This document shows, in pieces, positions 9,756 through 52,862 of a stretch of DNA of 64,000 nucleotides. How positions within the stretch are numbered: the first letter of the stretch is position 1; each line of letters opens with the position of its first letter. The notes under the pieces were generated by a model. The model saw nothing but the letters and a program-made list of their open reading frames with translations, was not told the origin of the DNA and made no database searches. Location: contig NZ_AP019749.1 in assembly GCF_006740045.1 (NCBI RefSeq), positions 310,001 to 374,000 on the forward strand. The letters run 5' to 3'. Origin of the DNA: Comamonas terrigena NBRC 13299. GTDB lineage: Bacteria > Pseudomonadota > Gammaproteobacteria > Burkholderiales > Burkholderiaceae_C. Position numbers and translations under genes: made by a program.

Positions 9756-11564
9756 ATGACGTTCGCTATCCATGGCCTGGCCGTTTCCCGGGGAATTGCC
9801 ATTGGACGCGCCGTCGTGGTGGCCTCCAGCCGCATGGAGGTGCGGCACTATTTCATCCAGCCCGAGCAGGTGGAGAGCGAAATCGCCCGCACCCGCGCTG
9901 CGCGCAATGCGGTGGTCGCCGAGCTGTCGCGCCTGCTGGAGAGCATGCCGGTGGATGCCCCCGGTGAAGTGGCAGCCCTGCTGGAAGTGCACCTGATGCT
10001 GCTGCAGGACGAGCTGATGGTCAACGGCGTCAAGCAGTGGATCACCGAGCGCCTGTACAACGCCGAATGGGCGCTGACCACGCAGCTGGAGGTGATCTCG
10101 CGCCAGTTCGACGAGATGGAGGACGACTACCTGCGCGAGCGCAAGTCCGATATGGAGCAGGTGGTCGAGCGCATCCTGCGCCACATGCGCGGCGTGGCCA
10201 GCCCGGTCTCGCCCGAGGCCTGCGCCGCCAAACCCCGGCGTGCCCCCGATGCGCAGCAGACACTGTCCGACGACATGACCGATGCCCCGCTGGTGCTGGT
10301 GGCCCAGGATCTGTCGCCGGCCGACATGCTGCAGTTCAAGCGCAGCGTGTTCGAAGGCTTTGTGACCGCCGTGGGCGGCAAGACCAGCCACACCGCCATC
10401 GTGGCGCGCAGCATGGACATTCCCGCCGTGGTGGGCGCACGCGCCGCCAGCCAATTGGTGCGCCAGGACGACTGGGTCATCATCGACGGTGACGCCGGCA
10501 TCCTGATCGTCGATCCGTCGCCCATCGTGCTGGAGGAATACCAGTTCCGTCGCCGCCAGATGCTGCTGGAGCGCGAGCGCCTGACCCGTTTGCGGCACAC
10601 CCCGGCGCAGACGCTGGATGGCCAGACGATCGAGCTGCTGGCCAACATCGAGCAGCCCGAGGACAGCCCCGCCGTGGTCAAGGCCGGCGCCGTGGGCGTG
10701 GGGCTGTTTCGCAGCGAATTCCTGTTTATGGGCCGGGGCGGAAAGCTCCCCGGCGAAGAAGAGCAATACCAGGCCTACCGCGCCGCGCTGGAAGGGTTGG
10801 AAGGCATGCCGCTGACCATCCGCACCATCGATGTGGGGGCGGACAAGCCGCTCGAAGGCAAGATCAATGCCTCGCTCAACCCGGCGCTGGGCCTGCGCGC
10901 CATCCGCTGGAGCCTGGCCGAGCCGGTGATGTTCCGCACCCAGCTGCGTGCCATCCTGCGCGCAGCGGCCCATGGCAAGGTGAACATGCTGTTCCCCATG
11001 GTGGCGCACCGCAGCGAGATCACGCAGATCCTGGCCCAGCTGCGGCTGGCCCAGTCCGAGCTGGACGCGCGCGGTGTGGCCTACGGCAAGGTGGAGCTGG
11101 GCGCGATGATCGAGATCCCGGCGGCGGCGCTGATGGTGCGCACCTTTTTGCAGTACTTTGACTTTCTGTCCATCGGCACCAACGACCTGATCCAGTACAC
11201 GCTGGCCATCGACCGCGCCGACGAGGCCGTGGCCGAGCTGTACGACCCACTGCATCCGGCCGTGCTGCAACTGGTGGCCCAGGTGATCCGCGAGGCCAAT
11301 GCCGCCGGCAAAAGCGTCTGCGTGTGCGGCGAGATGGCGGGCGATGTGGCGTTCACCAAGCTGCTGCTGGGCCTGGGACTGCGCAGCTTTTCCATGCACC
11401 CGGCGCAGGTGCTGGCGGTCAAGCAGGAAGTGCTGCGCACCGACACCCGCAAGCTGCATGACTGGGCGCAGGCGGTGCTGGATGCCGACGATCCGACGGC
11501 GGCGCTGCAGCAGACCGCAGACAGTCTGACGTCGCTGGCGGCGGTGGTGCCGGCGATGCGCTGA
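9756..11564 (+). CDS. ptsI: Phosphoenolpyruvate-protein phosphotransferase (enzyme I)
   Basis: EI autophosphorylates from phosphoenolpyruvate and phosphorylates HPr. The 602-residue product has the N-terminal HPr-binding domain, the phosphohistidine swivel region with GGKTSHTAIVARSM (His212) and the PEP-binding TIM barrel with LFRSEFLFMGR, IRTIDVGADKP, ANAAGKSVCVCGEMAGD and GLGLRSFSMHP. It is slightly longer than the E. coli enzyme (575). ATG 9756 is preceded by AGAAGGATT, a good ribosome site. As the last gene of the EIIA-HPr-EI group without a permease, it probably serves signalling, for example carbon/nitrogen or storage-polymer control, rather than sugar uptake; that is inference from the missing EIIB/EIIC. 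Confidence 0.96.
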   Translation: MTFAIHGLAVSRGIAIGRAVVVASSRMEVRHYFIQPEQVESEIARTRAARNAVVAELSRLLESMPVDAPGEVAALLEVHLMLLQDELMVNGVKQWITERLYNAEWALTTQLEVISRQFDEMEDDYLRERKSDMEQVVERILRHMRGVASPVSPEACAAKPRRAPDAQQTLSDDMTDAPLVLVAQDLSPADMLQFKRSVFEGFVTAVGGKTSHTAIVARSMDIPAVVGARAASQLVRQDDWVIIDGDAGILIVDPSPIVLEEYQFRRRQMLLERERLTRLRHTPAQTLDGQTIELLANIEQPEDSPAVVKAGAVGVGLFRSEFLFMGRGGKLPGEEEQYQAYRAALEGLEGMPLTIRTIDVGADKPLEGKINASLNPALGLRAIRWSLAEPVMFRTQLRAILRAAAHGKVNMLFPMVAHRSEITQILAQLRLAQSELDARGVAYGKVELGAMIEIPAAALMVRTFLQYFDFLSIGTNDLIQYTLAIDRADEAVAELYDPLHPAVLQLVAQVIREANAAGKSVCVCGEMAGDVAFTKLLLGLGLRSFSMHPAQVLAVKQEVLRTDTRKLHDWAQAVLDADDPTAALQQTADSLTSLAAVVPAMR

Positions 11565-11674
11565 GGCCTGTCCCCGGTGTCTGTGCAAGATGCGCTGTGC
11601 GGGGTGTCAGGCAGGCATGCGGCGGGGTGTGGCGCAGGCGGTGGAAATAAAACACCCTTCAGATGAAAAAGTGA

Positions 11675-11704
11675 TTGAGATTAATTCGCATTCAATGTTA
11701 TAGT
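11675..11704 (+). promoter_or_regulatory. Sigma-70-type promoter overlapped by a Fur box
   Basis: The -35 TTGAGA (11675-11680) and -10 TATAGT (11699-11704) each match five of six consensus bases and are 18 bases apart. No protein gene follows on this strand; the predicted start near 11711 falls at the base of a strong hairpin, the beginning of the candidate RNA described below. Confidence 0.6.
11676..11690 (+). promoter_or_regulatory. Fur box (7-1-7 type)
   Basis: TGAGATTAATTCGCA matches 12 of 14 specified positions of the inverted repeat TGAGAAT-N-ATTCTCA seen in Fur boxes. It covers the -35 region of the promoter, the expected place for repression by iron-loaded Fur. Confidence 0.55.
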
Positions 11705-11710
11705 TCAGCC

Positions 11711-11818
11711 CATGGAAGCAGCCGACACCGTCCTGGTGGGAGCTTGAAGGTCGAGGCGGCTTCCCATGGTTTCATCGTGGGGCGACCTAAGGCCTGTAAA
11801 GCCTGAAAGTCGTTTTTT
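11711..11818 (+). ncRNA. Candidate iron-regulated small RNA (about 108 nt)
   Basis: This is an unannotated intergenic RNA candidate. A near-consensus promoter with a Fur box ends at 11704. The predicted transcript starts with a long imperfect stem between 11710-11723 (CCATGGAAGCAGCC) and 11755-11769 (GGCGGCTTCCCATGG). A single-stranded linker with TTTCATCGTGG (11770-11780) follows, then a 3' terminator hairpin and six T residues (11783-11818). Size and layout resemble Fur-repressed RNAs such as RyhB, PrrF and the Burkholderia BrrF, which lower iron-using protein levels when iron is scarce. Sequence relation to those RNAs has not been tested. The linker TTTCAT could pair with AUGAAA at start codons; that is speculation. 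An 11-codon frame from the ATG at 11712 is also present. Confidence 0.5.
11783..11818 (+). terminator. Intrinsic terminator of the candidate small RNA
   Basis: Outer stem CGAC (11783-11786) / GTCG (11809-11812) and inner stem AGGC (11790-11793) / GCCT (11801-11804) are followed by TTTTTT. Internal unpaired bases make it moderate in strength, which may allow read-through to the next terminator. Confidence 0.55.
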
Positions 11819-11892
11819 GCCAGCCAGCGGAATGCCCGGTTAGCCACGCAATTTTTTCACGCTGAAACCCGTGTGATCGAGAATTTTGACTG

Positions 11893-11929
11893 CGCCTTGC
11901 AGGCTGTTGCCGCAAGGCGTTTTTGTTTG
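11893..11929 (+). terminator. Second intrinsic terminator downstream of the small RNA
   Basis: CGCCTTGC (11893-11900) pairs with GCAAGGCG (11912-11919) and is followed by TTTTTGTTTG. It reads rightward on the plus strand, where no protein gene ends, so it supports a non-coding transcript of up to about 220 nt starting near 11711. From 11930 to 12086 I see only GC-rich sequence without a feature; between the end of ptsI (11565) and 11674 I see no supported element. Confidence 0.7.
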
Positions 11930-12086
11930 TGCAAGGCATTGGTGACGGTGGCGCGCAGCGCGCCGCAACCAGCGCCGCACGGCCGCAGCCCTGCAGGCAG
12001 TGCAAGCCTCTGGTGCGGCCATCTTCGTATGCCTTGGCGCGGTGCCGCGCGGCCAAGTGCTGCGGGCCTGTTGCCCGCTGCGGCCA

Positions 12087-12117
12087 TAAAAAAAGCCATT
12101 GCCCGCGGGCAATGGCT
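12087..12117 (-). terminator. Intrinsic terminator of the DUF493-lipB-lipA operon
   Basis: The perfect palindrome AGCCATTGCCCG / CGGGCAATGGCT is followed on the minus strand by a seven-T run, about 40 bases after the lipA stop. Confidence 0.88.
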
Positions 12118-12157
12118 GATTGGCAGATTGGTTGGACGCCGGGGCAGCGCCGCGGGC

Positions 12158-13138
12158 TTACACGCCGGCGGCGTGGGCCTGCTGGTCGGCGTGGTAGCTG
12201 GAGCGCACCATGGCGCCCACGGCGGCGTGCGTGAAGCCCATCTTGTAGGCCTCCTCCTCGAACATCTTGAAGGTGTCCGGGTGCACATAGCGGCGCACTG
12301 GCAGGTGGCTGTTGGTGGGCGCCAGGTACTGGCCGATGGTCAGCATGTCGATGTTGTGGGCGCGCATGTCGCGCATCACCTGCAGGATTTCCTCGTCCGT
12401 CTCGCCCAGGCCGACCATGATGCCGCTCTTGGTGGGCACCTTGGGGTGCAGCGCCTTGAACTTCTTGAGCAGGTTCAGGCTGAACTGGTAGTCCGAACCC
12501 GGGCGTGCTTCCTTGTACAGGCGGGGCGCGGTTTCCAGGTTGTGGTTCATCACATCGGGCGGTGCCGAGGTCAGGATTTCCAGCGCGCGGTCATCGCGGC
12601 CGCGGAAGTCGGGCACCAGGATTTCGATCTGCGTGGTGGGTGACAGGGCGCGGATGTTCTGGATGCATTCCACAAAGTGGCCCGAGCCGCCGTCGCGCAG
12701 GTCGTCGCGGTCCACGCTGGTGATCACCACATAGTTCAGCTTCAGGGCGGCAATGGTGCGCGCCAGGTTCAGCGGCTCGTCCTTGTCCAGCGGGTCGGGG
12801 CGGCCATGGCCCACGTCGCAGAACGGGCAGCGGCGGGTGCACTTGTCGCCCATGATCATGAAGGTGGCCGTGCCCTTGCCGAAGCATTCGCCGATATTGG
12901 GGCAACTGGCTTCCTCGCAGACCGTGTGCAGCTTGTTGCTGCGCAGAATGTCCTTGATCTCGTAGAAGCGCGTGGTCGGGCTGCCGGCCTTGACGCGGAT
13001 CCACTCGGGCTTCTTCAGCACTTCGGCCTGCTCCACCTTGACGGGGATGCGCGCCAGCTTGGCGGCCGCCTTCTGCTTGGCCAGCGGGTTGTAGTTTTCG
13101 GCGGACTGCGCTTCGCGCACGACTTCGTTGCTGCTCAT
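12158..13138 (-). CDS. lipA: Lipoyl synthase
   Basis: LipA is a radical SAM enzyme that inserts two sulfurs into protein-bound octanoyl chains to make lipoate on 2-oxoacid dehydrogenases and the glycine cleavage H protein. The 326-residue product has both iron-sulfur sites: the auxiliary cluster motif [12 protein letters not shown] and the radical SAM motif [13 protein letters not shown], with the substrate-site end ([14 protein letters not shown]) holding the conserved Ser that ligates the sacrificial cluster. It is the last gene of the DUF493-lipB-lipA operon, 13 bases after lipB, and ends at a strong terminator. Confidence 0.97.
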
Positions 13139-52722: not shown

Positions 52723-52828
52723 GCATGGCGCCTTCCGTGGCCCCGGACGGTGGCGGCCTCGTAAATCTCCGGTAAACGGTGTCGTATCGGTGCTGAAGCC
52801 GGGTGTGCCTCCAGGGGTAAATACTTAA

Positions 52829-52847
52829 AATAAGAATAATTATTATT
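52829..52847 (+). promoter_or_regulatory. Fur box upstream of the DUF3649-PepSY-DUF3325 operon
   Basis: AATAAGAATAATTATTATT matches 14 of 19 positions of the classical Fur box (repeats of NAT(A/T)AT). The A/T-rich site stands out sharply against the GC-rich surroundings. It indicates repression by iron-loaded Fur. Confidence 0.75.
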
Positions 52848-52862
52848 TGCAGTTTGTGAGGA

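Follow-up and report, generated by a model that had tools for sequence, protein, structure and literature searches.

We propose that positions 11675-11857 of the window, the whole 64,000-nucleotide stretch of Comamonas terrigena NBRC 13299 DNA analysed here, form the gene for a trans-acting, Fur-repressed small RNA of the BrrF type, a reading to which we give a probability of roughly 0.8 as the best explanation, the following steps included. In low iron, Fur would leave its predicted box at 11671-11695, allowing synthesis of an RNA about 146 nt long. By base pairing through its G-rich segments (GUUUCAUCGUGGGGCGAC and the loop CCUGGUGGGAG), this RNA would reduce expression from mRNAs that encode iron-using proteins, in the manner of RyhB, PrrF and BrrF. 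A 3' domain with two AGCCA boxes would replace the ordinary terminator hairpin and, since this domain resembles the HmuP-responsive element (HPRE), HemP or another HPRE reader may bind the RNA and protect or deliver it. The family probably originated in the hemP 3' UTR, where many relatives still lie, and would have been copied from there to stand-alone loci with Fur promoters. Computation supports the existence of the family and its conservation, along with the Fur boxes and the structure.

Promoter, structure and predicted 3' end of the window copy

The element (Table 1) lies in the 593-base gap between ptsI, which ends at 11564, and the convergent lipA, which occupies 12158-13138 on the minus strand. 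As the original prediction had it, no plausible gene lies on the plus strand of this gap, where the open frames look spurious. The near-consensus promoter was likewise recovered: it matches at 10 of 12 positions, carries a TG ahead of the -10 and is the only promoter-like site between 11300 and 12300 (shuffle mean 0.1). Fur boxes were scored with a matrix derived from 54 of 81 hemP upstream regions, each included when its best 19-mer matched the E. coli consensus at 12 or more of 19 bases. With this matrix the Fur box foreseen over the -35 is again predicted, with scores of 14.8 at 11671-11689 and 13.5 at 11677-11695. These are the highest-scoring plus-strand 19-mers of the window, an AT-rich cluster at 52826-52850 aside, and 7 of 2000 random 120-nt segments drawn from the window scored as high as 14.8. 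The cluster at 52826-52850 holds a strong Fur-like site ahead of genes located at roughly 53.0-55.3 kb, which by eye resemble iron-uptake membrane proteins.

Table 1. Coordinates of the features of the window copy
Feature	Position	Strand	Basis or remark
Promoter TTGAGA-18-TATAGT	11675..11704	+	-35 at 11675-11680, -10 at 11699-11704; other stand-alone copies similar in layout
Predicted Fur box, two overlapping 19-mers covering the -35	11671..11695	+	Matrix from hemP promoters
5' hairpin with G-rich loop CCTGGTGGGAG at 11732-11742	11710..11770	+	Folds; covariation in nine same-genus relatives
Presumed base-pairing seed GTTTCATCGTGGGGCGAC, nearly invariant	11769..11786	+	Alignment of 74 rows
Conserved hairpin GCGAC...GTCG, then T6 at 11813-11818	11782..11812	+	Covariation
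HPRE-like domain, GCCAGCCA at 11819-11826 and AGCCACGC at 11842-11849	11819..11849	+	Two-box matrix score 17.1
U-run, predicted 3' end of the RNA	11852..11857	+	T4 at most 2 bases after AGCCAnGC in 72 of 74 rows
Hairpin with T-run, possible primary terminator before trimming	11892..11924	+	Fold

The predicted 5' hairpin folds as claimed over 11710-11769, with a stability that is unremarkable against shuffles (z -1.57; 13 of 200 shuffles equally stable). The 111-nt span first put forward for the RNA shows no unusual stability (z -0.73), and single-sequence folds were unexceptional (z -0.73, 0.68 and -1.26). In nine same-genus relatives, the window copy excluded, 91.7% of the cells of the 5' stem are paired; the covariation score of this stem was matched by 7 of 500 shuffles, and 113 of 500 had at least as many pairs with both bases altered.

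We built a covariance model, R1, from 34 copies of the element and fitted 74 members to it, 72 of them distinct. In this alignment three helices, the third consisting of two pairs, hold 54 double-changed cells compared with 17.6 in shuffles, a value as high as which was seen in none of 500 shuffles; the covariation drops when the helices are slid. Among the aligned rows, which were picked by a model already containing the seed, the seed is identical over 18 nt in 66 of 74 and its core ATCGTGGGGCG is present in all 74. The first AGCCA box occurs in every row and the second in 73 of 74.

An intrinsic terminator with six T residues had been expected to end the RNA about 108 bases past its start. 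The hairpin and its T6 are present (11782-11818), and conservation extends beyond them to AGCCACGCAATTTTTT (11842-11857); just 61 of the 74 aligned relatives retain GTCG with four or more T behind it, and a terminator scan reported neither this hairpin nor the one at 11892-11924. The T6 at 11813-11818 is probably not the end of the RNA. Because conservation passes this T6 and AGCCAnGC with its T4 is kept in 72 of the 74 rows, we place the end at 11852-11857; the earlier length is probably wrong, and the expected RNA spans about 11711-11857 (~146 nt). Directly after the U-run, CACGCTGAAACC at 11858-11869 is complementary, with one mismatch, to GGTTTCATCGTG in the seed region, and in some relatives CGATGAAAC stands in place of CACGCTGAAACC; a read-through transcript might therefore have a masked seed.

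Copies of the element and their genomic settings

In a DNA search of 41 genomes with 11655-11830, the 3' half of this segment proved to recur: a second copy lies at C1:2734247 of the genome to which the window belongs, and several genomes of the same genus carry it at up to four places. The copies share one order of parts: a Fur-box promoter or hemP, GTTTCATCGTGGGGCGAC, a hairpin, GCCAGCCA, a variable stretch, AGCCAnGC and a U-run. Within the window organism's family, R1 matched 79 of 299 genomes and 40 of 141 genera (E <=0.01, strict filters). In an order-wide set it matched 8 of 200 genomes at E <=0.1, five from the same family and three weakly (0.013-0.092); one weak match (L056) is by eye itself a AGCCAGCC pair.

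An exact-pattern scan of named genomes yielded at least 80 loci. Among the matches listed there were 82 exact seeds, 75 of them with both AGCCA boxes, and the named carriers comprised Comamonas, Delftia, Acidovorax, Paracidovorax, Variovorax, Hydrogenophaga, Polaromonas, Ramlibacter, Xylophilus and others, together with a few records labelled otherwise or vaguely (a Pantoea, a Gammaproteobacteria MAG). The seven seeds without boxes among the matches listed belong to three Variovorax, one Novosphingobium and three MAGs.

We selected 81 distinct elements by their core sequence, of which 36 follow hemP at a distance of at most 330 nt (15 of these starting at most 2 nt from the hemP stop) and 45 are not behind hemP. 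Box-bearing named copies among the matches listed were hemP-linked in 56 cases and unlinked in 19, and a Fur box was found for 17 of the 18 unlinked ones with sufficient upstream sequence. With a Fur box called at scores above the 99.99th percentile of window 19-mers, 44 of the 45 copies without hemP upstream have one (lowest score 8.4), against 13 of 2000 random stretches, many of the 45 being close relatives, so that the 44 are not independent cases. By eye, the lone exception (L363) resembles a hemP remnant. Conservation of promoter and stems between genera had been set beforehand as one point on which the prediction could fail; it is borne out by this Fur box count and by the three covarying helices in 72 distinct rows.

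Both copies found in the window's own genome are stand-alone, and its hemP (L081, C1:3013169, plus strand) has no element behind it. PtsI lies at most 700 nt upstream in 11 of the 45 copies without hemP, an antisense LipA at most 1500 nt downstream in 13, and both in 9; the copy at the ptsI-lipA site is retained in several same-genus genomes.

Several dispersed copies per genome, some with the complementary ends GTTTCATCG and CGATGAAAC, might also be expected of a mobile or REP-like DNA repeat that came to lie near Fur-controlled promoters by chance. We consider this very improbable in view of the Fur boxes in 44 of the 45 copies without hemP, a strand that is fixed relative to promoters or hemP, the compensatory changes in the helices, and the retention of the ptsI-lipA site in diverged genomes. 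It would be similarly surprising if activity were limited to hemP-linked copies and the window copy were transcribed and functionless. Such a view could draw on the hemP of this genome, which lacks the element behind it, so that the hemP-linked arrangement is missing here; the seed, boxes, hairpin and promoter of the window copy are nevertheless intact, and same-genus genomes have kept the ptsI-lipA copy. Least credible to us is that the segment is the leader of a small-protein gene and not an RNA gene. An 11-codon ATG frame does begin at 11712, and frames that cross the seed start at most 75 nt before it in 44 of 45 copies, but these frames measure anywhere from 13 to 547 codons, so no single frame is conserved, and the stems covary.

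A search for HemP on plasmids returned one named Comamonadaceae case, Variovorax paradoxus (CP063167.1, L191), in which hemP, the RNA element and an annotated transcriptional repressor, Fur-like by eye, stand in a row on a 2.5-Mb replicon. Tandem pairs of elements or exact seeds occur at three loci: L365, where both elements lie behind hemP, L426 (Corticibacter) and L439 (Lampropedia). A degenerate copy (L049, G005:C21:100156-100242) has three successive TTTCATCGTGG repeats, and variants downstream of hemP at L075/L055 and L162, which may be intermediates, have GAATCGTGGGGC instead of the usual seed.

Relation to BrrF and other Fur-repressed RNAs

RyhB, PrrF and NrrF are Fur-repressed small RNAs that follow an iron-sparing logic. 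A Fur-repressed RNA encoded in the window would by analogy share this logic; unlike these RNAs, it has no terminator stem at its predicted 3' end. Of the six Rfam matches at E <=10 on 11560-12160, none was to these families, so that the comparison with their covariance models did not bear out a kinship with them, and an Rfam search of the entire window found no related family.

BrrF of B. cenocepacia is described in parts of PMC7377471 as a 126-nt RNA, induced by low iron and cut from the 3' end of the Fur-boxed hemP mRNA, that starts with GUAUU and ends at Us without a stem, a separate terminator lying downstream. According to the same parts, brrF is always downstream of hemP, and acnA, fumA, sdhA, sdhC, sodB and katB are down in low iron in the wild type and not in the brrF deletion; the main text of that paper contains neither "Acidovorax" nor "Comamonad", and neither HmuP nor HPRE. 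BTH_s39 of B. thailandensis is the counterpart of BrrF, or ncS63, of Burkholderia cenocepacia. Excerpts of PMC4035088 print a BTH_s39 primer, GTATTGTGGGGACCACCTCT, and a probe containing AGCCAGCC, and ncS63/BrrF is also treated in portions of PMC5688073 and PMC10987360.

In a Burkholderia-like family (f32; genomes of 6.8-7.8 Mb), we found an RNA with GTGGGGACC behind hemP at four of five loci (L192-L195); the locus from a 2.1-Mb genome (L196) is without one. The first 20 bases match the BTH_s39 primer at 20 positions in L192 and at 19 each in L194 and L195, and these three RNAs measure 127-129 nt to the U-run, the start of L193 being different. At E 0.01, R1 matched none of the three. Unfiltered, it aligned with the whole BrrF-like RNA at the right place in L195 (E 0.75) and L192 (E 1.5) and overlapped the 3' part in L194 (E 0.79) and L193 (E 0.97); its best unfiltered match was to an unrelated site in L194 (E 0.043). 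We regard the window RNA as probably related to BrrF and probably working like it, though not as a proven member of its family.

The window RNA has in common with BrrF/BTH_s39 a GUGGGG segment with a hairpin directly after it, AGCCA boxes, a predicted stemless U-run end and a possible separate terminator downstream. Linkage to hemP with a Fur box is shared by other members of its family, and the lengths are comparable (126-130 nt vs ~146 nt predicted for the window RNA). In contrast to BrrF/BTH_s39, the window copy is not behind hemP and has its own predicted Fur promoter, an extra 5' hairpin and the seed flank AUCGUGGGGCGAC instead of UUGUGGGGACC; its family is multicopy, and the covariance-model match is not significant. 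The link to known Fur-repressed RNAs drawn in the original prediction thus holds for BrrF as far as architecture and hemP linkage go, but not as a significant R1 match.

The HPRE-like 3' domain, target search and biological meaning

Amarelle 2019 is said to be the primary HPRE paper, and Sato 2017 is reportedly the paper on HemP of B. multivorans. Outside the window RNA's family, a GCCAGC pair lies at most 200 nt after hemP at 34 of 53 hemP loci, and at 33 of these 34 an ATG frame 60 or more codons long begins 12-81 nt after the pair; this arrangement resembles HPRE. In the portions of PMC9131926 used here, HPRE is described in E. meliloti and also before chuR and vbuA of C. violaceum, and ChuP, a HemP homologue, is a post-transcriptional activator that did not bind the DNA probes tried. 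Elsewhere HemP has been reported as a DNA-binding activator or as a negative regulator (PMC9241770, in part).

We trained a two-box matrix on 26 of the 34 HPRE-like pairs (eight left out), all from outside the window RNA's family. The score of the window RNA was reached by 1 of 500 shuffles, and its boxes are 24 nt apart vs 20-37 nt in training; the second copy in the same genome scored 10.8 (16 of 500 shuffles as high). Three BrrF-like RNAs scored 19.4-26.4 (0, 0 and 1 of 500 shuffles) with boxes 53-67 nt apart. Of the 81 elements, 62 exceeded the 99th percentile of 3738 background pieces and 23 the background maximum. The window RNA thus has HPRE-like direct repeats of the AGCCAGCC type at a spacing within the training range. 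It differs from HPRE in that its boxes stand at the small RNA's 3' end and no gene follows on the plus strand, and in that the second box is degenerate (AGCCAnGC). The HPRE site in the 5' UTR of a heme or siderophore receptor gene has no parallel here, the downstream lipA being convergent. From the likeness of the boxes, we infer that HemP may bind these RNAs.

The exact 12-base seed complement, CCCCACGATGAA, had no site in the window's own genome beyond the two RNA copies, and one exact site was found in G009 (C2:39985). Considered as a means of masking start codons, one-mismatch sites numbered 40 vs 8 for a backward-read control in the own genome, 30 vs 7 in G002 and 33 vs 8 in G009, but many of the sites lie within long open frames, and we did not count them as target evidence. 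In a pairing test against 255 background gene starts, covering sdhC (14 of 24 loci), FeSOD (16 of 30 Sod loci) and fumA (17 of 25 loci), fumA starts paired modestly better than background (median percentile 11%; 10% of shuffled seeds equal), and sdhC and FeSOD starts no better (60% and 46%); the organism's own FeSOD paired at -17.6 vs a background mean of -18.8. We claim no mRNA as a target of the window RNA.

These weak target predictions, the AGCCA boxes in 74 and 73 of 74 rows and the description of HPRE and HemP as a regulatory pair (PMC9131926, in part) would also suit an RNA that is mainly a HemP decoy, its boxes titrating HemP from heme-receptor mRNAs and its G-rich segment merely shaping or protecting it. 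We hold this to be unlikely: the G-rich segment is conserved at least as well as the boxes, and iron-enzyme mRNAs are under the control of BrrF, whose GUGGGG segment is related (PMC7377471, in part). For the preferred Fur-repressed, BrrF-type RNA, we infer transcription, 3' end, targets, HemP binding and origin.

Among the papers listed by our literature searches, with most subscription journals outside their coverage, there was no Fur-controlled small RNA of the Comamonadaceae and no paper joining an HPRE to a small RNA. As a tentative extension, HemP/HmuP might be an RNA-binding protein dedicated to a whole family of Fur-controlled small RNAs, with HPRE serving as a small-RNA 3' end and the RNA having left the hemP message and multiplied in the Comamonadaceae. 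If so, one heme-binding protein would activate heme uptake through receptor mRNAs and also stabilise or deliver iron-sparing RNAs of the BrrF type. The family suggests an identity for the 3' part of BrrF/BTH_s39, and the AGCCA boxes shared by receptor leaders and these small RNAs make the question of whether HmuP/HemP acts on DNA or RNA a simple binding test. For the Comamonadaceae, which include many bacteria of soil, water and plants, the element offers a candidate counterpart to RyhB.
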